From positions 29,818-93,817 of IMG/VR virus record IMGVR_UViG_3300035670_000097: a stretch of 64,000 bases of DNA; one strand, written 5' to 3'. The position numbers were made by a program, and so were the translations under genes. Source of the DNA: a virus. Below, in pieces: positions 19,242 to 42,392 of this stretch. Under the pieces are notes generated by a model. That model ran no database searches, was not told the origin of the DNA, and saw nothing but the letters and a program-made list of their open reading frames with translations. Every line of letters begins with the position of its first letter. Position 1 is the first letter of the stretch.

Positions 19242-19265
19242 TTTTTACTCTTTTCACTTACAAAC

Positions 19266-20000: not shown

Positions 20001-20239
20001 TTTCTTCTCTGCCTCCCAGACTCAACGGACCCGTAGCCGGAGCCGGAGCCGCGTCCGTAGCCGTAGCCGTTGCCGTAGCCGTAGCCGCGTCCGTAGCCAG
20101 CATCGTCGGCGTAGCCGTCGTCGCCGCCGTAGCCGTTGGCGTAGCCGTCGCCGTTGCCGTAGCCGTAGGCGTTGCCGTAGCCGTTGCTGTAGCCCTTGCC
20201 AACCGGACGAAAAACGACGGCTTGATCCCCCGCCGTCAC
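19997..20239 (-). CDS. Gly/Tyr-repeat protein A (80 aa, GTG start)
   Basis: GTG start with GGGGG upstream and GTGA overlap with the previous stop (the longer ATG version starts at 20251). After VVFRPVGKGYSNGYGNAYGY the repeats continue and end SVESGRQRRK. First of three tandem paralogues. Confidence 0.7.
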   Translation of the reverse strand: MTAGDQAVVFRPVGKGYSNGYGNAYGYGNGDGYANGYGGDDGYADDAGYGRGYGYGNGYGYGRGSGSGYGSVESGRQRRK

Positions 20240-21960: not shown

Positions 21961-22698
21961 ATGCATAAATATGAAACTGTCTTTATTTCCGACCTGCATC
22001 TTGGCAGCAAAGGCTGCCAGGCGGAGAAACTGAACGAATTTCTAAAAATTGTAGAGTGTAAAAATCTTTTTCTAGTGGGCGATATACTTGACGGCTGGAA
22101 AGTTGCTCAAAATAAAATGCACTGGAAAAACTCTCATACGAGCGTAATTCGTCATATTCTTCGACTGGCAAAGAATGGTACGAAAGTTCATTATGTTGTG
22201 GGCAATCACGATGAGTTTCTTCGACCCCTGTTAAAGTATTCCATGACTTTTGGACGAATTGAAATTGCAAACTCTTTTACTCACGTTGGGCTGAACGGTA
22301 AACGATATCTAGTAGTGCATGGAGATTTTTTCGACGGCATTACTCGATTGGCTCCGTGGCTAAGCTTTTTAGGTGATCGAGCTTATGGAATATTGCTTAG
22401 TATAAACTACCGATTTAACTGGATACGCCGTAAGTTTGGTTTTGGATACTGGAGTTTGAGTGCTTGGCTGAAGCATCGAGTGAAAAGAGCAATTGACTTT
22501 TTATTTGAGTTTGAAAACAATATTACTAGCTATGCGAACCGAAAAGGTTATCAAGGAGTAATTTGTGGCCACATTCATACTGCTAGTATTAAAATGATTA
22601 ACGATATTGAATACATGAACGACGGAGACTGGGTAGAATCTTGTACTGCACTGGTCGAGACCGAAGAAGGAGAATGGAGAATATTATGCTTGTCCTGA
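21961..22698 (+). CDS. plcP: PlcP-like metallophosphoesterase (phospholipase C of lipid remodelling)
   Basis: 245-aa calcineurin-like phosphoesterase with SDLHLGS (10-16), GDILDGW (40-46), GNHDE (81-85), VVHGDFFD (118-125) and CGHIHTA (202-208). The body (YWSLSAWLK, INYRFNWIRRKFG, GDWVESCTALVE) matches alphaproteobacterial PlcP, which releases diacylglycerol from phospholipids under phosphate starvation; the fold is also shared with LpxH. Adjacency to the glycosyltransferase reproduces the chromosomal plcP-agt pair. No clear Shine-Dalgarno. Confidence 0.85.
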   Translation: MHKYETVFISDLHLGSKGCQAEKLNEFLKIVECKNLFLVGDILDGWKVAQNKMHWKNSHTSVIRHILRLAKNGTKVHYVVGNHDEFLRPLLKYSMTFGRIEIANSFTHVGLNGKRYLVVHGDFFDGITRLAPWLSFLGDRAYGILLSINYRFNWIRRKFGFGYWSLSAWLKHRVKRAIDFLFEFENNITSYANRKGYQGVICGHIHTASIKMINDIEYMNDGDWVESCTALVETEEGEWRILCLS

Positions 22699-23636
22699 TT
22701 ACTGACGCCTGGCATCCGCAGGTAAATGGAGTTGTTACCACTTACACAAACATACTGAATCATTTGACAATTCCGTATGAAGTGATTTCACCTCAAAACT
22801 TTAAATCAATTTACAATCCTTTTTATCCAGAAATTCGACTGGCTTTACCTTTTGGATTGAAACAAAAATTACTTAGTTACGAACCCAACACTTCATTTCA
22901 CATTGCAACTGAAGGACCGCTCGGCTGGAGAGCTCGCAGCATATTGAACAAAGCGGGACGAAGATACAGTACAGCTTTTCATACACGCTTTCCTGAGTAC
23001 TGTAACGTACGCTTTGGAATTCCAGTAAGCTGGGGATATAAATTTATAAATAAATTTCATTCCACTTCCAGTCGAGTATTTGTACCGTCAAATGAAATTG
23101 CAAAAGAGTTTTCGAACCGATCAACTGCTGTAATTTCTCGAGGCTACGATACGGAATATTTTTATGACGATAAGAAAATGGAAAGAAATAGCATACTGTA
23201 TGTCGGACGACTGAGCAAAGAGAAAAACATAGAAGCCTTTTGTTCATTGCCGTATGACAATCTCGTAGTAGTTGGCGATGGCCCCGAGCGCAAAAGACTG
23301 GAGCGTAGATATAAAAATGTTCAGTTTGTGGGCTATAAGTTTGGACAAATTCTAGGCAATTATTATCGGCAAGCAAAAGTAACAGTATTTCCCAGCAAAA
23401 CGGATACATTTGGAATCACTTTACTGGAGGCAATGGCGTGCGGAAGCCCCGTGGCGAGTTATAACTGTAACAATACTAAAAATATAATTATAAATGAATT
23501 GAACGGCTATCGCAATGACAATCTACATTTTGCTGTCAAAAAGTGTTTGACGATGAACAACAAAAGTGTAGCGAAAAGCGTGACGAAATATAACTGGCCT
23601 GAAGTGGCTCAAGAATTTCAGAAATGGCTGGTATAG
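22686..23636 (+). CDS. agt: Agt-like GT4 glycosyltransferase (glycolipid synthesis)
   Basis: 316 aa starting MLVLITDAWHPQVNGVVTTY (GGAG six nt upstream), overlapping plcP by 13 nt. Later LYVGRLSKEKNIEAF, VVGDGPERKRLE and FPSKTDTFGITLLEAMACG are GT4 nucleotide-sugar motifs with the E-x7-E glutamates. Agt makes mono- or diglycosyl diacylglycerol from PlcP's product, replacing phospholipids. The pair may free phosphate or alter the host membrane; that role in infection is inference. Confidence 0.82.
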   Translation: MLVLITDAWHPQVNGVVTTYTNILNHLTIPYEVISPQNFKSIYNPFYPEIRLALPFGLKQKLLSYEPNTSFHIATEGPLGWRARSILNKAGRRYSTAFHTRFPEYCNVRFGIPVSWGYKFINKFHSTSSRVFVPSNEIAKEFSNRSTAVISRGYDTEYFYDDKKMERNSILYVGRLSKEKNIEAFCSLPYDNLVVVGDGPERKRLERRYKNVQFVGYKFGQILGNYYRQAKVTVFPSKTDTFGITLLEAMACGSPVASYNCNNTKNIIINELNGYRNDNLHFAVKKCLTMNNKSVAKSVTKYNWPEVAQEFQKWLV

Positions 23637-27902: not shown

Positions 27903-28788
27903 AGAGAAATTCGGTTTCCTAAGGATTCGATTGAGCAAAATTTTCGGGGCCCAGCAAATTTTGTCAACTACTTTTTTATAATTTGGACAAAATTTTCCCC
28001 AAAATTGTATAAAACCGGATTAAATTCCTGCAATTCCACGGACCCCGCTCCGGGGGCCGGAAAAAATTGGGGTAATTTGTGCGGGGTCGGTGCAAGCCGA
28101 GTCGGGGTTTGTGCAAATTACTGCAAATTAGTGCACCCGCCCGGGCGGTTGTAAAAAGACTAGCAAAAGCAACTCGGTGGAGCAAATAAAAAATTTGACT
28201 TGACAAATAGGGGGTGCGAAAAGTATAATGGGCGCGCGCAAGTGCAGCGCAATTTGCATTGCTTTTGCACTTGGGCGCGGAAAATATTGCATTGATTTTG
28301 CACTTGCTGGTCGGCGCGCGGGTTCAAGCGGGGTTGGAAAGCAAAACGGGGTTGCTGCAAATTTATTGATAATTAGTGCAAATTGGTGCACCCGCCCGGG
28401 CACTCGTAAATTTAGTACTTGACATCGCTTTCGCACTTGGGCGCAGGCTCGCTGCAAATTTTTTTCTTCAAAAAAATTTTTTTAAGTGCAAAAAACTTGA
28501 CTAAAGTACAAAAATGCAGCAAATTCAGCAGCATACGTAGATTTAGTACTTGCATCGCTTTTGCACTTGGGCGCAGGAGGCGCCGGGGGTTGAATGGGCA
28601 GGTAGCTTGCCGCCGGGGGGTTGAATGGGCAGGTGGGTTGACGAAATCGGGGGCAATGGCAGGTAGCTTGCGCAAACCCCGCCCGATGAGCAAGAAACTT
28701 GACGAACGCCCCCAGGCGGCAAATGCGAATGAGAATCATTCGCATTTCCGGCGCAATGTTATAACATACCATTGAGCGAGTAAATGAA
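27903..28788. repeat. gene-less 0.9-kb repeat region I
   Basis: No believable ORF. Direct repeats: GTGCACCCGCCCGGGC at 28131 and 28386; TTTAGTACTTG(A)CATCGCTTT and following TTGCACTTGGGCGCAGG at 28411 and 28542; and a short array of about 31-bp units starting GGCAGGTAGCTTGC at 28597, 28628, 28658 and 28689. Contains one right-facing promoter and ends with the AAATGCGAATG hairpin shared with other units. Confidence 0.75.
28200..28229 (+). promoter_or_regulatory. right-facing promoter, unit 1
   Basis: TTGACA, 18-nt spacer, TATAAT. Followed by GCGCGC and a large CAAGTGC/GCACTTG hairpin instead of the CAAGTAGCTTG palindrome. Confidence 0.65.
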
Positions 28789-28807
28789 GGGGCGCTCGTC
28801 GCGCCCC
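28789..28807 (-). terminator. terminator of SIIAK copy A
   Basis: GGGGCGC/GCGCCCC stem; the minus strand continues TTCATTT. Same arrangement at 33223-33241. Confidence 0.6.
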
Positions 28808-28813
28808 AGTCAT

Positions 28814-29134
28814 CTATCGAGCGATCGCTTCGAGCAACCGTTCGAGTGACACCTTACTTGCCTTTTCCAGCCCATCCAGACTGTTAGCGGCCAGACTCAA
28901 TGCCTGCTCAATTCGGTCTACCGTGACTTCCTTGGAAGCAACCGGCTTTCCATCCTTACGAACCCGTTCGAGTTTTTGGTAGGGAATTCCTTCCCGAATC
29001 GCTTTTGCGATGATGCTTTTGACTTTCGCATCAAACTGCTCTGCCAGCCCTTCTACCTTTTCAAGGTTGAGCGGGGCCGCATCGCGCATCGCGGTCAGAA
29101 GGGTCGGGTTAAACGTGCTAGCTTTCTCTGCCAT
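28814..29134 (-). CDS. HTH-like protein, SIIAK family, duplicated copy A (106 aa)
   Basis: LAEQFDAKVKSIIAKAIREG then IPYQKLERVRKDGKPVASKE is the family core. Differs from copy B (33248) at three residues over 106. The gene, its flanks and its terminator are part of a roughly 0.6-kb duplicated block, so the duplication is recent. Confidence 0.8.
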   Translation of the reverse strand: MAEKASTFNPTLLTAMRDAAPLNLEKVEGLAEQFDAKVKSIIAKAIREGIPYQKLERVRKDGKPVASKEVTVDRIEQALSLAANSLDGLEKASKVSLERLLEAIAR

Positions 29135-29254
29135 TTTGGCTTCCTCTTTTGGCTCGCTGGCCTATCCAGCGAATGAGAGAATTATACGCCCATCGAGCCG
29201 AAAAGGAAAGAACTCTTTTTCATATCGCTGGCCGTTTTCATGCGAAAAAATTCC

Positions 29255-29394
29255 TTGACAAGCGCAGCGCGCTTGTGATAAAATCGGCGCGGCTATTGTC
29301 AAGTAAGTTGACAATTCGCCCCCAGGCGCCAAATGCGAATGAGAATCAATCGCATTTGGCAAGCAAAAAATAAGGCGTTATAACGCCTTATTTT
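29255..29394 (+). promoter_or_regulatory. right-facing promoter-palindrome-hairpin unit 2, with terminator
   Basis: TTGACA-18-TAAAAT at 29255-29284, palindrome TTGTCAAGTAAGTTGACAA at 29296-29314, hairpin GCCAAATGCGA/TCGCATTTGGC at 29328-29360, and AATAAGGCGTTATAACGCCTTATT terminator-like palindrome (given in halves: AATAAGGCGTTA and TAACGCCTTATT) to 29394. A complete small RNA gene of about 100 nt can be drawn. Confidence 0.6.
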
Positions 29395-29505
29395 AAATAT
29401 GCATCCTCGTATGTATCAAATATAAACGCGCATTCTAGCAGAAGATTTATTATTAGCGGGTTTAGGCAAATTAGCCTAAACCCTTCTACCAGTTCCATCA
29501 TATTA

Positions 29506-30177
29506 TTATGCCGCCTTTTGAACAATACGCCACGGATTAGGCGTTATTACATTGTAGGGAACCTTGCGCTTATGCTTGAAACATTCTGCAAGAATTTCCG
29601 TTTCGATAATAGCGTCCGACAATGCAGTATGATCCTCGATAAAGTCATGATTACCGGAAATAAAACGATAGGCAAACTCTGCACCAGTCTTAATATTACC
29701 CTTAGCAGAAACCCAACCGCTATTCTGAGCGAGTTTAATGTAAGACTTTTTGTTGAGTCTTACTTCGCAAGCAAAACGCCAGATATCGAGTTCACGAATA
29801 TCGGACGAAAACAGCGGAGCGGTATTATATTGTTCGCCCATGTTACGCAATACACGTTCATCGAATCCCAGATTATAAGCGGCTACAGTATCAATCTTAT
29901 AATCAATCGCAAGATTGCGAATAGTATTAGATACCGTTTCCCATGATTCCATCTTAACAGTACCGTCGTTCAGCATGGGGGCGTAGTGCGTGAACATCTT
30001 GCGAGCGTAGAATGCGCCCATCATTCGTTCCGCATTCGTGAATACTTCGCGCACCAGTGCATTGTACTGGTGAACAATGTTACCCTGACGATCAGTAATC
30101 GTAAGGCCAACGTCGTAAACGTGACCGTTCAGGTCGCACGTTTCGGTATCGAGAACCATAATCATTTGCTTTGCCAT
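29506..30177 (-). CDS. DnaQ-like 3'-5' exonuclease (DEDDh)
   Basis: 223 aa from the ATG at 30177. DTET at 10-13 gives the first Asp/Glu pair, YNLGFDERVL the second Asp, and DHTALSDAIIETEIL the final His/Asp of a DEDDh nuclease. Likely a stand-alone proofreading or nucleic-acid trimming enzyme. Own promoter at 30209. Confidence 0.85.
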   Translation of the reverse strand: MAKQMIMVLDTETCDLNGHVYDVGLTITDRQGNIVHQYNALVREVFTNAERMMGAFYARKMFTHYAPMLNDGTVKMESWETVSNTIRNLAIDYKIDTVAAYNLGFDERVLRNMGEQYNTAPLFSSDIRELDIWRFACEVRLNKKSYIKLAQNSGWVSAKGNIKTGAEFAYRFISGNHDFIEDHTALSDAIIETEILAECFKHKRKVPYNVITPNPWRIVQKAA

Positions 30178-30208
30178 CTTCGCGAACCCTTGCTGTGAGT
30201 GAGAACCT

Positions 30209-30237
30209 ACTATACTCAACGCCGAACCGGCTGTCAA
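30209..30237 (-). promoter_or_regulatory. promoter of the exonuclease gene
   Basis: Minus strand TTGACA, 17-nt spacer, TATAGT. Confidence 0.75.
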
Positions 30238-30659
30238 CGGTTTTCGTATCGAAAGACAAAAAATTCCTGCATCGCTCGGGCTTCCATTTCCCAAGGGGCG
30301 AGCCAATAGTCTAAATCCGTTTCGTTGGAATAAACCTTGCCTTTATATAAAACCTTATCGTTTGCAATATCTTGCAATTCTCCTTTTACCCATTGTTTAA
30401 TATGCGTCATTTCATGCGCTACTAATTCCATTAGTCGCTGTTCTGACAACATAAGTTCTTCATTAATAATAATAAAGAACAAATCGTCATCGCCCCTAAA
30501 ACATGCAGCATCCGCAGCACCAGAAACAAAATTTTCTATGCAGTCTGCCGATATATCAACGCCAATGTTTTTTGGCAGCTTATAAAAGCTTACGCAATCT
30601 TTTGCGATAGCTTTCGCAATAGTATTAAAGCGCTTAAAGCCCAAATCAACCTCGATCAT
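30234..30659 (-). CDS. zinc metalloprotease-like (HExxH) phage protein (141 aa)
   Basis: HEMTH at 82-86, then WEMEARAMQEFF with a likely third ligand Glu, as in SprT/ImmA-like metallopeptidases. Conserved in phages; substrate unknown. Promoter TTTACT-17-TATAAT at 30689. Confidence 0.8.
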   Translation of the reverse strand: MIEVDLGFKRFNTIAKAIAKDCVSFYKLPKNIGVDISADCIENFVSGAADAACFRGDDDLFFIIINEELMLSEQRLMELVAHEMTHIKQWVKGELQDIANDKVLYKGKVYSNETDLDYWLAPWEMEARAMQEFFVFRYENR

Positions 30660-30688
30660 TTTCGCGTTCCTTCACAACCAACACAGAT

Positions 30689-30717
30689 ATTATAGTCTAA
30701 CGGGGGCCAAAAGTAAA
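30689..30717 (-). promoter_or_regulatory. promoter, leftward
   Basis: Minus strand TTTACT, 17-nt spacer, TATAAT, upstream of the 30659 start. Confidence 0.6.
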
Positions 30718-30787
30718 CATGAGAATTTCGTTTAGAATCAATGACTTAGATCAACCCGACCTTCGAGTTTTTCAATTTCAGTCATAC

Positions 30788-30973
30788 TTACCACACCAAG
30801 CGACGTACTTCCGAATCTAGCATCCATTCTTCAATGTAAACTGTTTCTACCATTTTACATTCATTATCGAGTTCAAGAGCCCGACATTTCGCTTTTTCGA
30901 GGTCAGAATATACTGCTACCGTAACGCGACCGTTCTGCGTACTTTCAAGAACAATACCATACACTACATTCAT
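30788..30973 (-). CDS. small protein, YIEEW family member 1 (61 aa)
   Basis: MNVVYGIVLESTQNGRVTVA, then YSDLEKAKCRALEL and VYIEEWMLDSEVRRLVW. One of three paralogues (31909, 35105), each sitting beside a right-facing promoter unit. Function unknown. Confidence 0.7.
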   Translation of the reverse strand: MNVVYGIVLESTQNGRVTVAVYSDLEKAKCRALELDNECKMVETVYIEEWMLDSEVRRLVW

Positions 30974-31066
30974 TTTCGCGTTCCTTCATTCGATGACAAG
31001 CATTCTAGCGGGTTTCATGCAGCCAGACTAGTGAAAGATTTTCATGGTGCCATGAGAAAAATTCGC

Positions 31067-31168
31067 TTGACAAGTATGGGATGGGGATGGTATAATTTCG
31101 GCGCCATATTGACAAGTAGCTTGTCAATCGCCGAGGCGCCAAATGCGAATGATTCGCATTCGCATTTG
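31067..31168 (+). promoter_or_regulatory. right-facing promoter-palindrome-hairpin unit 3
   Basis: TTGACA-18-TATAAT at 31067-31096, perfect palindrome TTGACAAGTAGCTTGTCAA at 31109-31127, and 12-bp hairpin CAAATGCGAATG/CATTCGCATTTG at 31140-31168. Points against the flanking minus-strand genes. Confidence 0.75.
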
Positions 31169-31172
31169 CCCG

Positions 31173-31427
31173 TTATTGGTAAACAATCAACGCCAAAAGC
31201 GATGATTGTAAAAAGAACCCTATTCCGTTTGACGTTATATGCAAAAAGTCACGGTTGCCTATTGCGCGAATAAAATAAAGCGCCAGCCCAGCCCACACCA
31301 TTAAGACTAATGAAATTTCAGGCAATTTAACATCCTGCCCGTTCAGTATTCCTATCGTAGTGGGAACCGTCGCGCCTTGAATAAATAGCATACCGAGCCA
31401 TCCGCAAAATTCGCAAAGGTTTTTCAT
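31173..31427 (-). CDS. small polytopic membrane protein (84 aa)
   Basis: Three hydrophobic stretches (LCEFCGWLGMLFIQGATVPT, ISLVLMVWAGLALYFI, IGFFLQSSLLALIVY), resembling a half-transporter fold. ATGA overlap with 31424. Function unknown. Confidence 0.65.
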   Translation of the reverse strand: MKNLCEFCGWLGMLFIQGATVPTTIGILNGQDVKLPEISLVLMVWAGLALYFIRAIGNRDFLHITSNGIGFFLQSSLLALIVYQ

Positions 31428-31642
31428 TCCTTCACCTTGACTTCAGTAATGCTGCAAGTCAGAAAATGATCTGGAGTCGCTCCCCAGATATACCCGTTTT
31501 CAGAATGCCAAGTTATTGGGTCACCATCTAACATTTTGTGTATCGCTTTTTGCGCGGCCTTCACGCTAACGTAAAGCCCTGCAATTGCACCGATTTCTTG
31601 GATATATACAACCGGATCTATGGTTAGCTTGTAAACGATCAT
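31424..31642 (-). CDS. hypothetical protein (72 aa)
   Basis: MIVYKLTIDPVVYIQEIGAI, later SVKAAQKAIHKMLDGDPITW. Resembles the layout of the YIEEW proteins (strand, helix, strand). Function unknown. Confidence 0.7.
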   Translation of the reverse strand: MIVYKLTIDPVVYIQEIGAIAGLYVSVKAAQKAIHKMLDGDPITWHSENGYIWGATPDHFLTCSITEVKVKE

Positions 31643-31668
31643 TTTGCGTTCCTTCAGTTGAGAGAAGT

Positions 31669-31697
31669 ATTCTAGCCCAGCGCGCGCTCGGTGTCAA
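31669..31697 (-). promoter_or_regulatory. promoter, leftward
   Basis: Minus strand TTGACA, 17-nt spacer, TAGAAT, overlapping the 3' end of the 31694 gene and driving 31642. Confidence 0.65.
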
Positions 31698-31903
31698 TCA
31701 TTTTCTTCGGGCTTTTTCCAGTAGACTGCCAAGCGCTTGCAATTGAAGCGAATCGTGATTGATTCGTGCCCGTCGCGAATCGAAGTGTATCGCTTATAAT
31801 TGGGACCAATGCTATCAACTTGAAAATCCCTGCCATTTTCCCAGTCTGCCAGCGCCTTAGCGGCTGAAGTGTAATCGCGACCATACCCCGGAATTACTGT
31901 CAT
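31694..31903 (-). CDS. conserved phage protein with MTVIPGYGRDY start (69 aa)
   Basis: MTVIPGYGRDYTSAAKALAD, then WENGRDFQVDSIGP and ITIRFNCKRLAVYW. A common phage small-protein family of unknown function. ATG at 31903 used. Confidence 0.75.
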   Translation of the reverse strand: MTVIPGYGRDYTSAAKALADWENGRDFQVDSIGPNYKRYTSIRDGHESITIRFNCKRLAVYWKKPEEND

Positions 31904-31908
31904 TTTAT

Positions 31909-32103
31909 TTATTCCCTCGACCAAACTGTAACAGAAAATTCGCTATCCATCATCCATTCTTCAATATAAACGCTTTCTCCCATTTCGCATTGGCTCAATA
32001 ATTCTTCAGCGAGTTTCACCGCCTTATTATAATCGGAATAAACTCCGACCGTAGCATAGCTGTTGTCCGAAGGCTCGCCAAATACAACAGTGTATACATT
32101 CAT
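31909..32103 (-). CDS. small protein, YIEEW family member 2 (64 aa)
   Basis: MNVYTVVFGEPSDNSYATVG, then VYSDYNKAVKLAEELL and VYIEEWMMDSEFSVTVW. Paralogue of 30788 and 35105. Confidence 0.7.
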   Translation of the reverse strand: MNVYTVVFGEPSDNSYATVGVYSDYNKAVKLAEELLSQCEMGESVYIEEWMMDSEFSVTVWSRE

Positions 32104-32196
32104 TTTTACATCCCTCTATTCGATGACAAGCATTCTAGCGGGGTTCGTGCGAATAGACTAGTGAAATATTTTCATGATGCCATGAGAAAAATTCGC

Positions 32197-32296
32197 TTGA
32201 CAAGTAATGGATAGGGGTGATATAATTTTGGCGCCATATTGACAAGTAGCTTGACAATTCGCCCCGAGGCGGCAAATGCGAATGATTCTCATTTGC
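32197..32296 (+). promoter_or_regulatory. right-facing promoter-palindrome-hairpin unit 4
   Basis: TTGACA-18-TATAAT at 32197-32226, imperfect palindrome TTGACAAGTAGCTTGACAA at 32239-32257, hairpin CAAATG...CATTTG to 32296 overlapping the end of the 32289 gene. About 110 nt upstream are near-identical to unit 3. Confidence 0.75.
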
Positions 32297-32432
32297 ATCG
32301 CTGCTCTTGTACCTCGCGCCTAACCAAATGCTTGACAATTGCGCGCTTAACATGCTTACCATGTTTAGCGGAATGCGTTCCTGCTCGCCCTGCTAAATGC
32401 GCGTTTTTAGCTACAAAATTTTGCGCTTTCAT
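32289..32432 (-). CDS. small basic protein (47 aa)
   Basis: MKAQNFVAKNAHLAGRAGTH, His/Lys-rich afterwards. TAATG overlap with the HAD gene's stop. Resembles small basic NFVAK-x-A phage proteins. Function unknown. Confidence 0.6.
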   Translation of the reverse strand: MKAQNFVAKNAHLAGRAGTHSAKHGKHVKRAIVKHLVRREVQEQRCK

Positions 32433-32878
32433 TATACGTCCCTCGGGTGTATTGCGTTAATTCCCAGTATTTTAACAGTGTTTCTTACAGAATCATTATC
32501 TTCATAAAATACATTAGAAACGCGGTGAAAGTCTACATTTAATCCTGACAGTAAGTCATATTTTAGAAGTGCATCGGGCCGATTATCGTTCTCACCTTCG
32601 CGGGACAATACGCGATCAAAGTGTAACCCATGAGTACGCAAAAAGGTAAAGTCTGCCATCTGCAATACTCGCGCAGTACAAATTACGACAATATTACCAG
32701 CATTCCAAACGTCACGCCAAACGTTAGCGAGCGGTAAAAGTTTATCTTGCATAATCTTTTCGGGCGTAGAATTTGCTCGCCATCCGGCAAGGCAAAAGCT
32801 ACCGTCCGCATTCGCAACAGAACGATGGCTTGAATCTATGACCGTTCCATCTAAATCGAAAATGTTATATCTTGGCAT
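32432..32878 (-). CDS. HAD-superfamily phosphatase (148 aa)
   Basis: FDLDGTVIDSSHR with nucleophile Asp8 and Asp10, motif II in VVICTAR, and FYEDNDSVR as the C-terminal acidic motif. The pattern is close to the 3'-phosphatase domain of phage polynucleotide kinases, without a kinase domain. Start MPRYNIFDLDGTV at 32878. Confidence 0.82.
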   Translation of the reverse strand: MPRYNIFDLDGTVIDSSHRSVANADGSFCLAGWRANSTPEKIMQDKLLPLANVWRDVWNAGNIVVICTARVLQMADFTFLRTHGLHFDRVLSREGENDNRPDALLKYDLLSGLNVDFHRVSNVFYEDNDSVRNTVKILGINAIHPRDV

Positions 32879-32882
32879 TTTC

Positions 32883-32978
32883 TTAAACCCCGTAAACGTG
32901 TGCGCTGGCAACAATGATTGCAAAAAGAACGACTCTGCTAAGAGCGGAAGTGAGTACTAATTCTGCGAGCTTTTTCAT
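32883..32978 (-). CDS. tiny membrane peptide (31 aa)
   Basis: MKKLAELVLTSALSRVVLFA followed by IIVASAHVYGV: one transmembrane helix with basic N-terminus. Ends 4 nt before the HAD start. Promoter at 33007. Confidence 0.5.
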   Translation of the reverse strand: MKKLAELVLTSALSRVVLFAIIVASAHVYGV

Positions 32979-33006
32979 TCGTTCCGTTTCCTGATTCAAT
33001 GGGAGT

Positions 33007-33035
33007 ATTCTACCGGGTCCGAGCAAAAAGTACAA
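33007..33035 (-). promoter_or_regulatory. promoter, leftward
   Basis: Minus strand TTGTAC, 17-nt spacer, TAGAAT. The same sequence pair recurs at 33615 and 35329. Confidence 0.6.
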
Positions 33036-33080
33036 GAACTCTTTTTCATATCGCTGGCCGTTTTCATGCGAAAAAATTCC

Positions 33081-33176
33081 TTGACAAAACCCATGCGGTT
33101 ATCGTAAAATCGGCGCGGCTATTGACAAGTAGCTTGTCAATTCGCCGAGGCGGCAAATGCGAATGATTCTCATTTG
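33081..33176 (+). promoter_or_regulatory. right-facing promoter-palindrome-hairpin unit 5
   Basis: TTGACA-18-TAAAAT at 33081-33110, perfect palindrome TTGACAAGTAGCTTGTCAA at 33122-33140, hairpin CAAATG...CATTTG to 33176. It would transcribe antisense into SIIAK copy B. Confidence 0.75.
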
Positions 33177-33222
33177 CATTTGCCGAGCAACGTTATAACA
33201 TACCATTGAGCGGGTAAATGAA

Positions 33223-33241
33223 GGGGCGCTCATCGCGCCCC
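33223..33241 (-). terminator. terminator of SIIAK copy B
   Basis: GGGGCGC/GCGCCCC stem, duplicate of 28789-28807. Confidence 0.6.
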
Positions 33242-33247
33242 GATCAT

Positions 33248-33568
33248 CTATCGAGCAATCGCTTCCAGCAACCGCTCGAGTGACACCTTACTTGCCTTTT
33301 CCAGCCCATCCAGACTGTTAGTGGCCAGATTCAATGCTTGCTCAATTCGGTCTACCGTGACTTCCTTGGAAGCAACTGGCTTTCCATCCTTGCGAACCCG
33401 TTCGAGTTTCTGGTAGGGAATTCCTTCCCGAATCGCTTTTGCGATGATGCTCTTGACTTTCGCATCAAACTGCTCTGCAAGGCTCTCTACCTTTTCAAGG
33501 TTCAGAGGCGCTGCATCGCGCATCGCGGTCAGAAGGGTCGGGTTAAACGTGCTAGCTTTCTCTGCCAT
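33248..33568 (-). CDS. HTH-like protein, SIIAK family, duplicated copy B (106 aa)
   Basis: Near-identical to copy A (28814). It lies between unit 5 and unit 6, just beside the large repeat arrays whose CAAG-N3-CTTG sites would be natural targets for a DNA-binding protein; that link is inference. Confidence 0.8.
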   Translation of the reverse strand: MAEKASTFNPTLLTAMRDAAPLNLEKVESLAEQFDAKVKSIIAKAIREGIPYQKLERVRKDGKPVASKEVTVDRIEQALNLATNSLDGLEKASKVSLERLLEAIAR

Positions 33569-33614
33569 TTTGGCTTTCTCCTTTGGCTCGCTGGCCTATC
33601 CAGCGAATGAGAGT

Positions 33615-33643
33615 ATTCTACAGGGCCTGAGCAAAAAGTACAA
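33615..33643 (-). promoter_or_regulatory. promoter of SIIAK copy B
   Basis: Minus strand TTGTAC, 17-nt spacer, TAGAAT. Confidence 0.6.
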
Positions 33644-33688
33644 GACCTTTTTTTCATATCGCTGGCCGTTTTCATGCAAAAAAATTCC

Positions 33689-33748
33689 TTGACAAGCGCA
33701 GCGCGCTTATGATAAAATCGGCGCGCCCATTGTCAAGTAGCTTGACAA
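33689..33748 (+). promoter_or_regulatory. right-facing promoter-palindrome unit 6
   Basis: TTGACA-18-TAAAAT at 33689-33718 and palindrome TTGTCAAGTAGCTTGACAA at 33730-33748, leading directly into the tandem-repeat arrays. Confidence 0.7.
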
Positions 33749-33767
33749 TTCGCGCCGAGGCTACAAA

Positions 33768-33970
33768 TGCGAAGATTTTTCACTTGCAAACCAGGCCCAG
33801 GCCTGGCATTGAAATTTCACTTGCAAATTCGCCCCAGGCCTGGCATTGAAATTTCACTTGCAAACCAAACCCAGGCCTGGCATTGAAATTTCACTTGCAA
33901 ATTCGCCCCAGGCCTGGCATTGAAATTTCACTTGCAAATTCGCCCCGGGCCTGGCATTGAAATTTCACTT
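33768..33970. repeat. tandem array, 37-bp unit, five copies
   Basis: GGCATTGAAATTTCACTTGC starts at 33805, 33842, 33879, 33916 and 33953, exactly 37 bp apart; each unit also has a CCAGGCCTGG palindrome. The units are contiguous, with no spacers. Confidence 0.92.
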
Positions 33971-34021
33971 GCATAGGTTTCTAACTTGCATAGATTTCTA
34001 ACTTGCATAGATTTCTAACTT
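33971..34021. repeat. tandem array, 17-bp unit, three copies
   Basis: GCATAG(A/G)TTTCTAACTT repeated at 33971, 33988 and 34005. Confidence 0.9.
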
Positions 34022-34026
34022 GCATG

Positions 34027-34352
34027 TGCAGGTTTCTTGCCTTTCCCCTCGATGGGCAGGTAGCTTGCAGGTGAGCCCGCCGATGGGCAGGTAGCTTGCA
34101 GGTGAGCCCGCCGATGGGCAGGTAGCTTGCAGGTGAGCCCGCCGATGCGCAAGAGACTTGCCTTTGCCCGCCCGATGGGCAGGCAAGTTGACGAATTCCA
34201 TGAGATGCGCAGAAAACTTGCATTTTCGGCGCGGTTGGCACGTTTCTTGCACATGAGTCAAAGCTGGCATGAATTTTGCATGTACTCCACAATTGGCATG
34301 ATTCTTGCAGATTCGGCGCGGTCCGCAAGATGCTTGCACAATTCCGACAAAT
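34027..34352. repeat. degenerate tandem array, 28-31-bp unit, eleven copies
   Basis: Units begin (G/C/T)GCA at 34027, 34055, 34086, 34117, 34148, 34178, 34208, 34237, 34266, 34295 and 34324. Each carries GCA-N5/7-(C/G/T)TTG; three central units starting GGCAGGTAGCTTGCAGGTG are perfect. Spacing near three helical turns would put the sites on one face of the DNA. No gene in this stretch. Confidence 0.85.
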
Positions 34353-34378
34353 GCGAGTAATTCGCATTTGTCGGAATT
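34340..34378 (-). terminator. strong hairpin downstream of the HNH gene
   Basis: 17-bp stem AATTCCGACAAATGCGA with its complement, 12 nt past the HNH stop. Contains the AAATGCGA half of the unit hairpins. The U-run is weak, so it may be a processing or barrier structure. Confidence 0.5.
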
Positions 34379-34389
34379 ATAAGCGATTA

Positions 34390-34734
34390 TTAAGTAGTCG
34401 CTTTATGTTCTTCTAGCATACGCGCGAACAATGCGCGCTTATTATTAATAATCGCTTCGGCTTTTATTAGAATATCGAGTTCTTCTGCCGTTAACTCAAT
34501 CGGATCAAGTTTCGGCAATCCTTCTGTAGCGTTCTTTTTATTATTGCAGTCATGGCAAAGGCATTGTAACCATTCAGGATCATTTAAATCGATACCCATT
34601 GCAAGCAACGTTTTGCGTGGATAAACATGATCAATTTCAAGATTAGAACCACTACCGCAAGCTGCGCAGCGATAGTTATATGCTGCAAATACTTGCGCGC
34701 GCAGTCTCATTTCAACCTTGCTAAACTTTGCCAT
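34390..34734 (-). CDS. HNH endonuclease (114 aa)
   Basis: ATG at 34734 with GGAG. C23-x2-C26, LEIDHVYPRKTLL (D35 H36) and CLCHDCNNKKNATEG give a complete zinc-bound HNH domain. Free-standing; may be a homing enzyme or a general phage nuclease. The promoter is weak (TTGCCA-16-TATAAT near 34769-34796). Confidence 0.85.
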   Translation of the reverse strand: MAKFSKVEMRLRAQVFAAYNYRCAACGSGSNLEIDHVYPRKTLLAMGIDLNDPEWLQCLCHDCNNKKNATEGLPKLDPIELTAEELDILIKAEAIINNKRALFARMLEEHKATT

Positions 34735-34852
34735 CTCGTCTCTCCAGTACCGTTGCTCTATGGTTCCCATTATACAGGCATCCTCGAGCATGGCAATAGG
34801 CGAGTTAGACCTTTTTTTCATATCGCTGAGCTTTCTTATGCGAAAAAAATCC

Positions 34853-34912
34853 TTGACACGCTCTGGCGTGGTAAGGTAAAATCGGCGCGCCCATTGTGAA
34901 GTAGACTGACAA
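34853..34912 (+). promoter_or_regulatory. right-facing promoter-palindrome unit 7
   Basis: TTGACA-18-TAAAAT and a degenerate palindrome TTGTGAAGTAGACTGACAA at 34894-34912. Confidence 0.65.
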
Positions 34913-34943
34913 TCATTCAGCGGCCTACATGAAAAAAATTCGC

Positions 34944-35004
34944 TTGACAAGTATAGGATAGGTGAGGTATAATTTTGGCGCCATATTGGCAAGTAGACTG
35001 ACAA
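34944..35004 (+). promoter_or_regulatory. right-facing promoter-palindrome unit 8
   Basis: TTGACA-18-TATAAT and TTGGCAAGTAGACTGACAA at 34986-35004. Units 7, 8 and 9 are in tandem about 91 bp apart. Confidence 0.7.
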
Positions 35005-35034
35005 TCATTCACCGGCCTACATAAAAAAATTCGC

Positions 35035-35098
35035 TTGACACGCTCTGGCGTGGTAGGGTATAATCGGCGCGCCCAAATGAGAGGTATTCTCATTTGGG
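35035..35098 (+). promoter_or_regulatory. right-facing promoter-hairpin unit 9
   Basis: TTGACA-18-TATAAT at 35035-35064 followed by an 11-bp hairpin CCCAAATGAGA/TCTCATTTGGG (35072-35098); the CAAGTAGCTTG palindrome is missing. Confidence 0.7.
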
Positions 35099-35380: not shown

Positions 35381-35434
35381 CGTGCGTCGACTTGTTACCG
35401 TGCGTCGACTTGTTACCGTGCGTCGACTTGTTAC
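35381..35434. repeat. tandem 18-bp repeat, three perfect copies
   Basis: CGTGCGTCGACTTGTTAC at 35381, 35399 and 35417, in the gene-less stretch between the two arms. Confidence 0.92.
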
Positions 35435-35526
35435 CAGCCCGGGGCGGTTCCGAGACTGTCAAGTAGCTTGACGCTCAGGCTACCCCGCACGTACAACTTT
35501 TGGAATTTTTCAAAAATTGAAAATTA

Positions 35527-35646: not shown

Positions 35647-36093
35647 ATGAATTTGGTAAAAATTTCTCCTGAAAGTCTTGAAATTGCAAATGCATATTTG
35701 CAAAATGGCAGCATTGCTAGTGTTGCAAAGGCGCTCGCACTTCCAGAAAATGAGGTGACAGAAATTCTCTCTCGCCGAGAAGTAAAAGCGTATCTAGATT
35801 CCATTTATCTAGATCACGGCTATCGAAATAGATTCAAGTTAGCAGAGACTCTCGATCTTCTCATAGACGAAAAACTTCGTGAAGCAGAAAGTACCGAGAT
35901 GTACACTAACAAGGACTTAGCCGATCTGTTACACCTAGCTCATAAGATGCGTATGGATGAAATTAAAGCAATGACCGAACTTGAGAAAGCTCGAGCAACG
36001 CCGATTAAAAATCAAACCAACGTTCAGATTAATGAGACTCCATTTGGTGCTGGCAACTACGGCAAGTTAATGGAAAAACTTTTGCAATCATGA
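35647..36093 (+). CDS. terS: terminase small subunit
   Basis: 148 aa. An N-terminal HTH-like region (GSIASVAKALALPENEVTEI) with ILSRREVKAYLDSIYLDHGYRN, then a central helical oligomerisation part, fits TerS, which recognises packaging DNA. First gene of the packaging module; overlaps the next gene by 4 nt. No leader or Shine-Dalgarno, suggesting a leaderless mRNA. Confidence 0.78.
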   Translation: MNLVKISPESLEIANAYLQNGSIASVAKALALPENEVTEILSRREVKAYLDSIYLDHGYRNRFKLAETLDLLIDEKLREAESTEMYTNKDLADLLHLAHKMRMDEIKAMTELEKARATPIKNQTNVQINETPFGAGNYGKLMEKLLQS

Positions 36094-36377
36094 AAGAATT
36101 TCTAGCAGAACTCGGCATGAACGCCGGTCTCATTGTCGCGGGTCTGTTTGGCTCGCTTTTAACTTTGCGGGGGGATGCCGCGAAGAGGCTTGGAAGTGTT
36201 ATGGTAAGTTTAGGAACAGGAGTAGGGTCCGCAAACTATTTAACTCCAGTAGTTATTGATCTACTGGGCGTTCAAAGTCGAAATCTCGAGTTTGGAATAG
36301 CTTTTATACTAGGCTATTTGGGGCTAAATGGCATTGATTTTCTAGCTCGACGACTTTTTGAGAGCAAAAAACCATGA
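36090..36377 (+). CDS. phage membrane protein near the terminase (95 aa)
   Basis: LGMNAGLIVAGLFGSLLTLR, then ANYLTPVVIDLLG and GIAFILGYLGLNGIDFLA: three hydrophobic segments. The same pattern (PGLIIAGLFG ... NYLTP ... GMN) is common next to terminases, sometimes annotated as holin. Function not proven. Confidence 0.75.
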   Translation: MKEFLAELGMNAGLIVAGLFGSLLTLRGDAAKRLGSVMVSLGTGVGSANYLTPVVIDLLGVQSRNLEFGIAFILGYLGLNGIDFLARRLFESKKP

Positions 36378-36613
36378 TCGAAAGCGCACTTTGTCTATCC
36401 ATGATATTTTTTTACGTTTCATTGCTGAATGATAAAAAAATTTGCTCTTGGTCGAAGCCGAAAGTGTGGATATTGCGTTCACTTTTTGCAGGCAGCATTG
36501 CTTCCGTAGCTTGGAGTGTATTTTACGAAACAGAATTACCCTATCTATTTCTTACTGCAATTTTTGGTTGGGGCTTTTATTACCATCGGTATACGTTAAA
36601 TGGAAATCAGTAG
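36374..36613 (+). CDS. small membrane protein (79 aa)
   Basis: MIESALCLSMIFFYVSLLND and two further hydrophobic segments. ATGA overlap before, 14-nt overlap with terL after. Function unknown. Confidence 0.65.
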   Translation: MIESALCLSMIFFYVSLLNDKKICSWSKPKVWILRSLFAGSIASVAWSVFYETELPYLFLTAIFGWGFYYHRYTLNGNQ

Positions 36614-37883
36614 ATCAGATATACAGTGCGAGTACGTTGAAGAATGTAAAACTTTCATTAAACTTCCAATTGTACCGTATCTTGAACTTCTAAACATAAA
36701 TCCCATTCCATCTCAAATTGCAATTATCAATGCGATACAGAAATATCGCTTTGTGGTCGCCGCAGTTTCTCGAAGACAGGGTAAAACTTTCATCGCAAAT
36801 GTCATCGGACAACTGGTTACACTAGTACCCGGGTGTAATGTGCTCATCATGGCACCCAACTACAATCTTTCTCAAATTTCTTTTGATCTACAAAGATCGC
36901 TGATAGATCATTTCAGCATTGAAGTTGAGCGAGACAACGCGAAAGATCGTGTAATTGAGCTTGTAAATCGTTCTACCATTCGCATGGGCTCGGTAAATCA
37001 AGTCGATTCGGCAGTAGGACGCTCTTACGATCTCATTATTTTTGACGAAGCCGCTCTTGCAGACGGTGAAAATGCTTTTAACGTTGCTTTGAGACCTACG
37101 CTGGACAAACCGAACGCACGCGCGATCTTTATTTCAACTCCTCGAGGTAAAAATAACTGGTTTAGCCGCTTCTGGGCTCGGGGTTTCTCGGATGAGTACC
37201 CTCAGTGGGCTTCGATTCGCGCAACTTGGAAAGACAATCCTCGAGAAAACAAGGAAAACATTGAAGAAGCGCGTAAAACCATGTCAGCCGCAGAGTTTTC
37301 GCAGGAATATTTAGCAGACTTCAATGTTTTCGAAGGACAAGTGTGGAGATTTGATGGCGAACATTGTGTTGCCAATCTGGATGAGCTTAACATTTCCGGT
37401 ATGGACATTATTGCAGGGCTGGACTGGGGCTTTCGTGACCCTACAGCCATGTGCATAGTTGCGTATGACTGGGACAAAGAAATTTATTATCTACTCGACG
37501 AGTACTTACATGCCGAGCGAACTACTGAACAGCACGCTTTTGAAATTCAAAAGCTTTTGGACCGTTGGAATCCAGACTTTATTTTTATCGACTCTTCGGC
37601 TCAGCAAGTTCGATTTGATCTAGCACAAAATTACAACATTGCAACTACCAATGCGGAAAAAGATGTTTTAAGTGGTATTGGGCATGTGGCGGGTATTGTA
37701 GACAACAATCGTTTAATCGTATCTCGAGATTGTAAAAATACACTTGCTGCTCTAGACGCCTATCAATGGGACGACAATCCAAATTTGTTGAAGGAAAAGC
37801 CGAAGCATAACTATGCTAGTCACATGGCTGACGCGTTGCGATACGCTCTTTATAGTTTTAAAACTTCGTCCACGATATTTTAG
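36600..37883 (+). CDS. terL: terminase large subunit
   Basis: Packaging ATPase/nuclease, 427 aa. Walker A SRRQGKT (57-63), Walker B DLIIFDEA (144-151), FISTPRG coupling motif, nuclease Asp in GLDWGFRDP, FIDSSAQQ and SHMADALRYAL. Complete. Ends 64 bp before the HNH gene. Confidence 0.96.
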   Translation: MEISRSDIQCEYVEECKTFIKLPIVPYLELLNINPIPSQIAIINAIQKYRFVVAAVSRRQGKTFIANVIGQLVTLVPGCNVLIMAPNYNLSQISFDLQRSLIDHFSIEVERDNAKDRVIELVNRSTIRMGSVNQVDSAVGRSYDLIIFDEAALADGENAFNVALRPTLDKPNARAIFISTPRGKNNWFSRFWARGFSDEYPQWASIRATWKDNPRENKENIEEARKTMSAAEFSQEYLADFNVFEGQVWRFDGEHCVANLDELNISGMDIIAGLDWGFRDPTAMCIVAYDWDKEIYYLLDEYLHAERTTEQHAFEIQKLLDRWNPDFIFIDSSAQQVRFDLAQNYNIATTNAEKDVLSGIGHVAGIVDNNRLIVSRDCKNTLAALDAYQWDDNPNLLKEKPKHNYASHMADALRYALYSFKTSSTIF

Positions 37884-39853: not shown

Positions 39854-40129
39854 ATGACAAAAGGACAATTACTTGAAACCATTGCAAACTATTTTGTTGC
39901 AAAAGGTAAATATTTAAATATGCGAGAGTACAAGCAGCAGCCTGACTTTCCTGTAAGTCCGAACTTAGTACTTCGTGCTTACGGATCGTGGGGTCGTCTA
40001 CCGAGCAAGATCAAGAAGTATTATCCTGATATTGCAGCTAAGATTGGAGCGCCTGTGGCTGCCCCTAAGCCTGCGCTCAAAAAAGCAAAGGTAGCTGAGC
40101 CTGTAAATGAGCAAAGCAGCGAATCTTAA
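39854..40129 (+). CDS. small phage protein, possible HTH (91 aa)
   Basis: MTKGQLLETIANYFVAKGKY, then APSW-like YGSWGRLPSKIKKYYP; helical N-terminus and an Ala/Pro/Lys tail. Overlaps the capsid polyprotein by 23 nt. Function unknown. Confidence 0.65.
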   Translation: MTKGQLLETIANYFVAKGKYLNMREYKQQPDFPVSPNLVLRAYGSWGRLPSKIKKYYPDIAAKIGAPVAAPKPALKKAKVAEPVNEQSSES

Positions 40130-42392
40130 GACAGGAGACTATGTAAAGTGGAATTCGTCTGGCGGCATAGCCAAAGGACGAATTGAGCACACAATGAAAG
40201 AAGGCGTGTTAGGAATTCCTGGTAGTAGTTTTTCGATTACTGCTACAGAAGAAGATCCGGCAGCTTTAATTCGTATTTACAGGGACGGTAAAGAGACTGA
40301 AACTCTGGTAGGCCATAAGTTTTCTACTCTTACTAAAATTTCCCGAGAAGAAGCTTTAAAGGCTGCGGACGGAATTAATATCATGACAAAAAATTTCTTT
40401 TTAGATACAGAGTTTAAAGCCTATGTAAGCGACGACGGGGATACTTACATTACAGGGCTTGCCAGTACTCCGGAAGTAGATCGCACTGGCGATATTATTG
40501 AATCGAATGCATGGTTAAAAGGCGGACTGGAAAATTACAAGAAAAATCCAGTAATTCTTTTTAATCACTCTTATGCGAAGCCAATCGGTAAAGCGGTAGA
40601 AATTCAAACCGATGTAGAAGGCTTACGAATTAAAGCTAAGATTTCTCGTGCTGCGGGCGAGATTTTAGATCTTATCAAAGATGGAGTCCTTGGAGCTTTC
40701 TCCGTTGGTTTTCGAATCAAGGATGCCGATTATATGCCAGAAACCGACGGATTTCGTATCAAAGATGCAGAGTTGTTTGAAATTTCAGTAGTATCTGTTC
40801 CTGCAAATCAATCTGCAATTTTTTCTTTGTCAAAGTCCTTTGAAAGCTCAGAGGAATATCAAAGTTTTAAACAGACCTTTATGAATGACGGCCTAGACGG
40901 GTTAGAAGAGAAAGTAAATGCTGAATCTTCGAGCGCCCCTGCGCCGGGAGAAGCGACTTCAGTCGCAACTATGGAGATAAAAAAGATGGATCCAAAAGAG
41001 TTAGAAGCACTAGTAGCTTCTGTTGCAGAAAAAACTGCACAAACATTAGCTGCTGCACAAGTCGAGCGTGAAGAAAAGTCTCGTCTTGCTGCCGAAGAAG
41101 CTGCTCGAAAAGCATCGGAAGAAAAGCAACTCTCCGATAAAATCTCGGTAGCAGTTACTACGGGGGCGGAACGACTTGTTGCAGATATTGAGAAGCGTTT
41201 TGCTGATAAGAACGCTGATCTGGAAAAGATCGTTAGCGATCTTCGCAATGAAATTTCTGAGAAGTCTCATGAAATTATGCAAATTCGTGAATCCAAGCGA
41301 ATTTTTGCCGATCGTGCAGATGGCGACTGGAAGAAGGCTTTTGCAAAAGATGCGGATGACGCATTTATTCTTGGCCTGGTTACTCGCAAAGGCTGGCAGC
41401 AGACTTCGCTGGGTCGCCAACTGGTTGAGAAAGTTAACCAGCATTCTGGCGTTGAAGTTTCGAGTGCCGACTTTGAACAGACGGTATCGACGAACATTGA
41501 GCGTGATATTCAGAACGAGCTGATTCTGGCTCCTCTGTTCCGCGAAATTCCGATGACAGCAGCTAGCCTGATTCTGCCGATTCTGCCTGACGCTGGTTAC
41601 GCAGAGTTTACGTCTTCGCAAGCTGCTGGCGGTTCTTCGCCGAAAGGTAACTTAGATCCGCGTTCGAATGCTTATGGTTCGCCCTACATCGGTGTTACCA
41701 TGTCCGAGCGTGTACTGACAACCAAGAAGCTGATTTCGAAGAGCTATCTGGGCAACGAGACAGAAGAAGATGCAATTCTTCCGATTCTGCCTCTGATTCG
41801 TGAGTCGATGGTTCGTTCGCACGCTCGTGCAATCGAAGCTTCGATTCTCGTAGGTAATCACGCTGACGGTCCTTTTGGAACTGGTGGAGCTTCGTATGAC
41901 GGTCTGATTACTCTGGCCGCCGCTGATAGCGATAAGACTCAAAGCTCGACTGTAACGTATGCAAATACGGTCTTTACAGCAGCTGATCTGCTTGGTCTGC
42001 GTAAGAACATGGGCAAGTATGGCGTTCGTCCGGAAGACGTTGTTTACATCGTTAACCAGCGTACCTACTTCGAACTGCTCGAAGATGCTGAGTTCCAGGA
42101 CATGAACCTGGTTGGAAATCTGGCTACGAAGATCAATGGTCAAGTTGGTCAGATCTATGGCAGCCGTGTTCTGCTCTGCGATGAGTTCGCAACTCCGGCT
42201 GCTGGAAAGTATGCCGCTATCGCAGTCTATCCGCGTAACTTCGTTGTTCCGCGTCTGCGTGGAGTTACGATTGAATCGGATTACGATGTTGAGAATCAGC
42301 GTCGTGTGCTGGTTGCATCGCAGCGTCTTGGCTTTATTGATATTATCGACGGAGCTACGTCTAAGTGGGCACTTCAGTACCCTGGTTCGTAA
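40107..42392 (+). CDS. prohead protease-scaffold-major capsid polyprotein (761 aa)
   Basis: Four parts in one frame. Residues 5-75: a DUF2945/Tudor-like strand domain (LKTGDYVKWNSSGG). About 95-235: an HK97 prohead protease with His154 (ILFNHSYAKPIGK), Ser199 (GAFSVGFRI) and FEISVVSVPANQS. About 290-395: an Ala/Glu/Lys coiled coil like the delta/scaffold domain. About 405-761: an HK97 capsid fold (PLFREIPMTAASLILPIL, TSYLGNETEED-like E-loop, YPRNFVVPRLRG). An internal in-frame ATG at 40986 with GGAG eight nt upstream could give a separate scaffold-capsid precursor. Terminator at 42411. Confidence 0.9.
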   Translation: MSKAANLKTGDYVKWNSSGGIAKGRIEHTMKEGVLGIPGSSFSITATEEDPAALIRIYRDGKETETLVGHKFSTLTKISREEALKAADGINIMTKNFFLDTEFKAYVSDDGDTYITGLASTPEVDRTGDIIESNAWLKGGLENYKKNPVILFNHSYAKPIGKAVEIQTDVEGLRIKAKISRAAGEILDLIKDGVLGAFSVGFRIKDADYMPETDGFRIKDAELFEISVVSVPANQSAIFSLSKSFESSEEYQSFKQTFMNDGLDGLEEKVNAESSSAPAPGEATSVATMEIKKMDPKELEALVASVAEKTAQTLAAAQVEREEKSRLAAEEAARKASEEKQLSDKISVAVTTGAERLVADIEKRFADKNADLEKIVSDLRNEISEKSHEIMQIRESKRIFADRADGDWKKAFAKDADDAFILGLVTRKGWQQTSLGRQLVEKVNQHSGVEVSSADFEQTVSTNIERDIQNELILAPLFREIPMTAASLILPILPDAGYAEFTSSQAAGGSSPKGNLDPRSNAYGSPYIGVTMSERVLTTKKLISKSYLGNETEEDAILPILPLIRESMVRSHARAIEASILVGNHADGPFGTGGASYDGLITLAAADSDKTQSSTVTYANTVFTAADLLGLRKNMGKYGVRPEDVVYIVNQRTYFELLEDAEFQDMNLVGNLATKINGQVGQIYGSRVLLCDEFATPAAGKYAAIAVYPRNFVVPRLRGVTIESDYDVENQRRVLVASQRLGFIDIIDGATSKWALQYPGS

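Follow-up and report, generated by a model that had tools for sequence, protein, structure and literature searches.

Nine right-facing promoter units beside the terminase genes

A 64,000-nucleotide stretch of a virus record in IMG/VR (IMGVR_UViG_3300035670_000097, positions 29,818 to 93,817; here called the window) carries a family of repeated units, in each of which a promoter-like sequence is accompanied by palindromic elements, next to the phage terminase genes. The pattern TTGACA-N18-TAWAAT has exactly nine matches in the window, all on the + strand (Table 1), whereas dinucleotide shuffles gave a mean of 0.02 matches and never more than 1; no match besides these nine occurs anywhere in the full 93,817-base record. 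A sequence-only reading of the window had described these nine right-facing sites, along with a dyad near the start site, hairpins after several units, and a terminator belonging to unit 2, and each of these features was recovered. The dyad, TTGACAAGTAGCTTGTCAA or a variant of it, follows seven units and is degenerate in the last two of the seven, while the hairpins are of the AAATGCGAATG type or, after unit 9, of a related type. What that reading had not listed is GGCGC, which lies 1 to 3 nt 3′ of the −10 element in 9 of 9 units. A palindrome occupies the spacer of units 2, 6, 7, and 9; it is weak in unit 5, and there is little of it in units 1, 3, 4, and 8.

A family of at least 498 units

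The family was assembled from a pattern scan of IMG/VR (at least 119 stretches), a palindrome-based scan (83), and loci reached through the terminase and the SIIAK protein described below; locus counts are approximate, as a few pattern-scan contigs are likely to be chance matches (for example, L057 and L061). Conservation in related phages, on which the sequence-only reading had staked its proposal beforehand, proved extensive, with at least 498 distinct units in at least 147 viral-contig loci; the phages concerned are numerous, T5-like, and uncultured. Wherever a locus had two or more units, all of them lay on the same strand (120 of 120 loci). Genomes of ~100 kb typically carry 3 to 9 units in a single cluster of 5 to 8 kb, and the units point toward T5-like terminase genes. 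No match to the unit consensus at ≥80% coverage was found in INPHARED, and PLSDB yielded none; a scan of bacterial genomes for the unit likewise returned no matches, nor did the corresponding region of T5 or of its Klebsiella, Vibrio, and Aeromonas relatives contain such a family (Demerecviridae regions compared: that of T5 and four others).

Two variations on the unit were seen among the relatives. In L014, L015, L046, L095, and L185, GGCGC stands 13 to 14 or 21 to 23 nt 3′ of the −10 element, about one or two helical turns beyond its usual place, and the three distances at which it occurs (0 to 4, 13 to 14, and 21 to 23 nt past −10) suggest helical phasing, with few members in the outer classes. 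Many relatives also have a third palindrome, of the type TAGGGGTAAACCCCTA, beside the −35 element on the side of the left gene, followed by TGTTGTATTTTTGCAC.

The promoter and its inverted repeat are under selection

Sites were also fetched solely by the palindrome CCAAAATTATRYNDTATAATTTTGGCGCC, with the −35 element left out of the search, and 85 of the 86 had TTGAC exactly 18 nt upstream. Since the −35 element had not been searched for, selection must be acting on a sigma-70 promoter. TRTGN, the extended −10 sequence, is likewise conserved in the family. A mirror image of the −10 element, at least 7 bp long, is present in the spacer of 181 of 371 units, compared with 0.12% for shuffled spacers, and 265 of the 371 have at least 8 of 11 positions paired over the −10 repeat. 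The arms covary: TATAAT occurs with ATTATA 143 times and never with ATTTTA, and TAAAAT occurs with ATTTTA 38 times and never with ATTATA. Arms that reach past the −10 element covary too (TTTTGG, TTGG, ATTGG, and CGG). Because sigma-70 needs no mirrored arms, the repeat must be maintained either by pairing itself or by a process that copies one arm to the other. Mismatches in the −10 palindrome lean to G·T on the unit strand, and most of them coincide with extended −10 positions (TRTG), so they are uninformative as to which strand folds. The window units differ from this main class of the relatives in that the palindrome of those that have one lies inside the spacer, instead of the spacer mirroring the −10 element.

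A second, strong hairpin begins ~10 nt 3′ of the −10 element in most units (mean z score of −3.8 over 150 units; median stem of 12). Its sequence differs between phages, and its motifs recur within many phages. Terminator-like signals precede the neighboring gene in the rightward direction in 147 of 354 units and in the leftward direction in 114 of 354 (shuffles, 3). The idea that the units are nothing but intrinsic terminators was rejected, because T-tracts seldom follow the main hairpin directly (14% and 8%).

Units lie at antisense borders between gene blocks

With genes called in a simple way from codon usage, 304 of 371 units fall between two genes that run against them. In the palindromic main class the median distance to the 3′ end (stop codon) of the antisense gene on the right is 63 nt, and the start codon of the left gene is ~120 nt away. 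The antisense orientation claimed by the sequence-only reading thus holds, with the correction that the units lie between genes, diverging from the promoter of the left gene and converging on the end of the right one. The left gene has a leftward promoter of its own behind the unit (mean best score of 9.1, versus 5.6 in shuffled gaps); in the gaps behind the window units, these promoters are, by eye, mostly TTGTAC-N17-TAGAAT or similar.

The units had also been set apart as a separate promoter class on the strength of their 18-nt spacer. That argument does not stand by itself, since spacers of 17 nt (61 of 133) and 18 nt (42 of 133) are both common among gene promoters of the family, but the class itself survives, divided from gene promoters by its discriminator: the G+C content of the discriminator is 69% in units and 40% in gene promoters, and GGCGC is present in none of the 133 gene promoters. 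A role for the units as late promoters of the terminase genes was considered and set aside, as terminase has its own TTGACA-N17-TATAAT at ~35611.

Among gene pairs seen only once, 25 of 38 cases have a unit between the two genes; among pairs seen two or more times, 77 of 236 do. Blocks such as F6-F5, F7-F3, F0-F11, and F9-F15 hold together without an internal unit while neighbors change across units; the blocks occur in permuted order, with units where they meet.

The locus encodes A2-family proteins and matches the T5 pre-early region in position and A2 content

The region that holds the units is syntenic, with the terminase genes (families F2 and F4) as its right boundary and, in many records, F10-F0 as its left boundary. 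Families that recur in the locus include F3 (an exonuclease), F1 (a HAD phosphatase), F5 and F9 (proteins with a HELIH-type motif), F6 and F7 (small membrane proteins), and F0 (the SIIAK family), of which there are 96 copies in 33 loci. Fifty-eight of 62 F0 members match PHROG 1725, the PHROG of T5 A2 itself, and an hhalign comparison of F0 with A2 gave a probability of 97.1% (E value of 6.8e-11 over 104 columns). The F0 structure model has a predicted local distance difference test (pLDDT) score of 91, with a Vibrio phage A2 protein among the best viral matches, and the A2-like recognition helix is nearly invariant. F0 is the helix-turn-helix family of the T5 pre-early protein A2. The SIIAK proteins, which had been put forward as candidate regulators of the units, are therefore A2-family helix-turn-helix proteins, several copies of which are encoded in the locus.

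TerL is 48% identical to that of Klebsiella T5-like phages, and the head protein is ~37% identical to those of Vibrio and Salmonella T5-like phages; by these similarities, the terminase and head genes are of T5 type (Demerecviridae-like). The A1 transfer protein had no match in nine unit-bearing records (G000, to which the window belongs, and eight others). A related phage without units (G012; locus L013, 43.5 to 44.8 kb) has A1 in the region that also holds its A2-like gene. The locus therefore occurs in both states, with A1 in unit-less G012 and without it in the unit-bearing records tested. In its position and A2 content, the region is the counterpart of the T5 pre-early locus.

Dyads and neighboring genes in the window

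The core of the dyad, CAAG-N3-CTTG, has eight perfect sites in the window, all between 28.69 and 35.46 kb, and none in the rest of it. A relaxed search placed 16 of 19 window sites in the 7.6 kb from 27.9 to 35.5 kb, and the noncoding stretches at 28.6 to 28.75 kb and 34.0 to 34.34 kb are arrays of more dyad-like sites. Relatives carry dyad motifs of their own, unlike that of the window. A dyad confined to the locus, with phage-specific motifs in relatives, is compatible with a candidate binding site, and with a putative roadblock under one repressor. The dyads vary between phages while the A2-like recognition helix is nearly invariant, so A2-like proteins are not the obvious readers of the dyad.

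Several other features of the window were recorded. The perfect 18-bp direct repeats at the right border stand just 5′ of the terminase genes and may be a packaging or end signal. A single 761-amino-acid open reading frame (40107 to 42392) has matches to the head maturation protease and also to the major head protein, each of which has its own gene in Demerecviridae isolates; relatives L019 and L020 share this long frame, at 753 and 761 amino acids. Long, low-complexity repeat frames occupy 19050 to 20036 and 62000 to 64000, the second opposite an apparent collagen-like repeat at the end of the record. A metallophosphoesterase-like gene (21961 to 22698) and a glycosyltransferase-like gene (22686 to 23636) have similar counterparts, F39 and F38, that adjoin terminase in L175 and L176.

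Table 1. Units, associated repeats, and neighboring genes of the locus, with positions in the window
Feature	Description	Position	Strand
Unit 1	Promoter, TTGACA-N18-TATAAT with GGCGC, in the noncoding left border region	28200–28236	+
Left repeats	Dyad-like repeats (28599, 28660, 28691) and AAATGCGAATG hairpin (28721–28747), before the 3′ end of gene 28814–29134	28599–28747	+
A2-family gene	Helix-turn-helix protein (SIIAK), 106 aa	28814–29134	−
Unit 2	Promoter 29255–29284, spacer palindrome ACAAGCGC-AGC-GCGCTTGT, dyad 29296–29314, AAATGCGAATG hairpin 29331–29357	29255–29357	+
Unit 2 terminator	Terminator-like hairpin AATAAGGCGTTATAACGCCTTATT	29369–29392	none
F3 gene	Exonuclease-like protein, in 30 of the compared loci	29506–30177	−
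Unit 3	Promoter 31067–31096, perfect dyad 31109–31127, AAATGCGAATG hairpin 31141–31167	31067–31167	+
Unit 4	Promoter 32197–32226, dyad 32239–32257, AAATGCGAATG hairpin from 32274	32197–32298	+
F1 gene	Polynucleotide-kinase-phosphatase-like (HAD) protein	32432–32878	−
Unit 5	Promoter 33081–33110, perfect dyad 33122–33140, AAATGCGAATG hairpin 33155–33181	33081–33181	+
A2-family gene	Second A2-family protein of the locus, 106 aa	33248–33568	−
Unit 6	Promoter 33689–33718, dyad 33730–33748, then noncoding repeat array	33689–33748	+
Dyad-like array	Sites at 34029, 34057, 34088, 34119, 34150, 34239, 34297, and 34326; spacing partly 31 bp	34029–34336	+
Hairpin	Around GACAAATGCGA..TCGCATTTGTC, at the 3′ end of gene 34390	34338–34380	none
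Unit 7	Promoter 34853–34882 with spacer palindrome, degenerate dyad 34894–34912	34853–34912	+
Unit 8	Promoter 34944–34973, degenerate dyad 34986–35004	34944–35004	+
Unit 9	Promoter 35035–35064, hairpin AAATGAGAGGTATTCTCATTT 35075–35095	35035–35095	+
Right border	Three 18-bp repeats GTGCGTCGACTTGTTACC (35382–35435), last dyad CAAGTAGCTTG at 35460	35382–35470	none
Terminase genes	Small subunit (F2, 35647–36093) and large subunit (36600–37883), the fixed right neighbor of the locus	35647–37883	+

Comparison with known systems

Promoter-early stem-loops (PeSLs) are elements of T4-type phages, and those of phages such as RB49 were reportedly described by Arbiol et al. in 2010 and by Comeau et al. 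in 2014. PMC4503421, citing that work, presents the T4-type PeSLs as composite promoter-terminator motifs linked with module shuffling. The units carry what their sequence predicts to be a strong sigma-70-like promoter, as PeSLs do, and share with them an inverted repeat over the spacer and −10 element, a high copy number, a location between small genes, and an association with gene shuffling. Unlike PeSLs, whose promoters run along the genes, the units have promoters that run against them; the 18-nt spacer, the GGCGC discriminator, the second hairpin past the start site, and the separate leftward gene promoter also belong to the units and not to PeSLs, and the host phages are T5-like for the units and T4-like for PeSLs. 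In RB49 DNA we found approximately eight promoters with stems of 6 to 9 bp over the spacer or −10 element (~3.4 in shuffles), such as the ATGGGAGTA-GTAAAA-TACTCCCAT stem over −10, and these stem-bearing promoters are on the gene strand. The same hairpin-in-promoter design in the opposite direction makes the units a PeSL-like variant rather than a member of the PeSLs.

The locus resembles the first-step-transfer (pre-early) region of T5 in lying beside terminase, encoding an A2-family DNA-binding protein and many small genes, and having a repeat-rich noncoding edge. It differs in that no A1 was found and A2 is present in several copies, and T5 itself has no units. The stoperators of cluster A mycobacteriophages are likewise numerous binding-site-like repeats of phage-specific sequence, mostly in one orientation relative to transcription, but they are asymmetric sites for a single immunity repressor and are not promoters (PMC6550527), whereas each unit is attached to a promoter and its repressor is only hypothetical. 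Pseudo-symmetric bidirectional promoters of bacteria (e.g., PMC12825309 and PMC10268837) have mirror-image −10 elements on both strands, as the units do; compared with those promoters, the units have mirrored arms that covary and extend past the −10 element, and the leftward genes have their own promoter. In the literature that we searched, we found no earlier description of antisense-facing promoter-hairpin borders.

A PeSL-like border model and its alternatives

We read the units as antisense-facing, PeSL-like borders between small early-gene modules, in which a strong sigma-70 promoter directed against the genes is combined with a stem-loop, and we place about even confidence in this reading. 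From it we infer transcription, insulation, recombination at the borders, and regulation by A2-like proteins, as follows. Soon after DNA entry, host RNA polymerase would start at both of the back-to-back promoters of each border. The ordinary leftward promoter would express the module, while the near-consensus rightward promoter would yield a short RNA headed by a hairpin, its transcription stopping at the 3′ end of the neighboring module or colliding over it. The head-on promoter and a hairpin acting in both directions would block read-through, so that each module would be expressed separately. Being alike, the borders could recombine with one another and so swap modules in and out. The A2-family proteins and the GGCGC discriminator would be the likely means of turning the unit promoters up or down.

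Several points weigh against this reading. In the close relatives L018 and L019 (88% identical terminase), the locus is present but nearly free of canonical units, which are therefore not a requirement. Another relative carries a single unit with a related dyad, TTGTCAAGAAAATTGACAA; with the closest relatives nearly devoid of units and another holding one, the gain or loss of units is rapid. The border of an operon is a natural site of exchange in any case, and the position of units at junctions is therefore no proof that they recombine. The promoters of PeSLs point along the genes, and the reading does not account for their reversal in the units. Finally, the start sites, the terminators, and the collisions of transcription at the units are predictions.

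A possible but clearly less probable reading is that the units are switch elements. The antisense promoters would form a separate temporal class, at first repressed by a phage protein bound to the dyad or hairpin DNA, and their later release would allow convergent transcription to silence the pre-early genes. The differing discriminators of units and gene promoters fit such a scheme; in T5 the main difference between early and late promoters is in the discriminator, the place at which the phage protein gpT5.026 acts (PMC7472727). The confinement of the dyad to the locus, with A2-family helix-turn-helix genes between the units, fits it too, although the near-constant recognition helix of these proteins is at odds with dyads that differ between phages. 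Antisense reach would be limited by the rightward terminator-like signal that precedes the gene in ~40% of units, and a search of ten records, run without a positive control, found no gpT5.026 homologue. We are more doubtful still of a dedicated pre-early switch, in which an array of antisense promoters, with a −10 element that could be locked in a hairpin and a discriminator read by A2-family proteins, would time the silencing of the first genes or the entry of the remaining genome.

It is improbable that the units are multicopy small RNAs, that is, hairpin RNAs of ~50 nt acting in trans as sponges or decoys. Each has a strong predicted promoter, a hairpin within ~60 nt, and often a terminator-like signal, and there are several copies per genome. 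The sequence-only reading had listed multicopy small RNAs among its proposals, but a small RNA of shared sequence is not borne out: past GGCGC, the predicted transcribed sequence is nearly free of information across phages and the hairpin alone persists, no Rfam family scored above its gathering threshold for the units, and wobble pairs in the hairpin have no strand bias (22 G·T versus 29 C·A). Hairpins differ even inside one phage (e.g., L063 and L166). A subthreshold Rfam microRNA match at 34338 was dismissed as an ordinary hairpin.

We think it very unlikely that the units act at the DNA level in first-step transfer, their promoters and palindromes holding RNA polymerase or proteins so as to brake T5-type entry. 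The locus does adjoin terminase, as the T5 terminal repeat does, and encodes A2 homologues, and its repeat-rich noncoding edge has a position comparable with that of the injection stop signal in T5; the absence of A1 from the nine records, including that of the window, and of the unit family from T5 and its relatives argues against such a brake. That the units are decayed mobile repeats, similar to miniature inverted-repeat transposable elements (MITEs) or repetitive extragenic palindromes (REPs) and inserted by chance between genes, is hardly credible, for although they are multicopy, palindromic, and intergenic, they keep to a single strand in every locus with two or more units, covary exactly in the −10 repeat, are conserved by position and promoter function, and are not nearly identical in hairpin or spacer within one genome.

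As PeSL-like borders, the units would extend promoter-hairpin module borders beyond T4-type phages, in hundreds of copies, in reversed direction, and with base-pair covariation through the −10 element. They tie such borders to the T5 A2 family, whose contribution to pre-early switching and to DNA transfer in two steps is still unclear, and they would offer a compact system in which to test how the early genes of phages are insulated and swapped.

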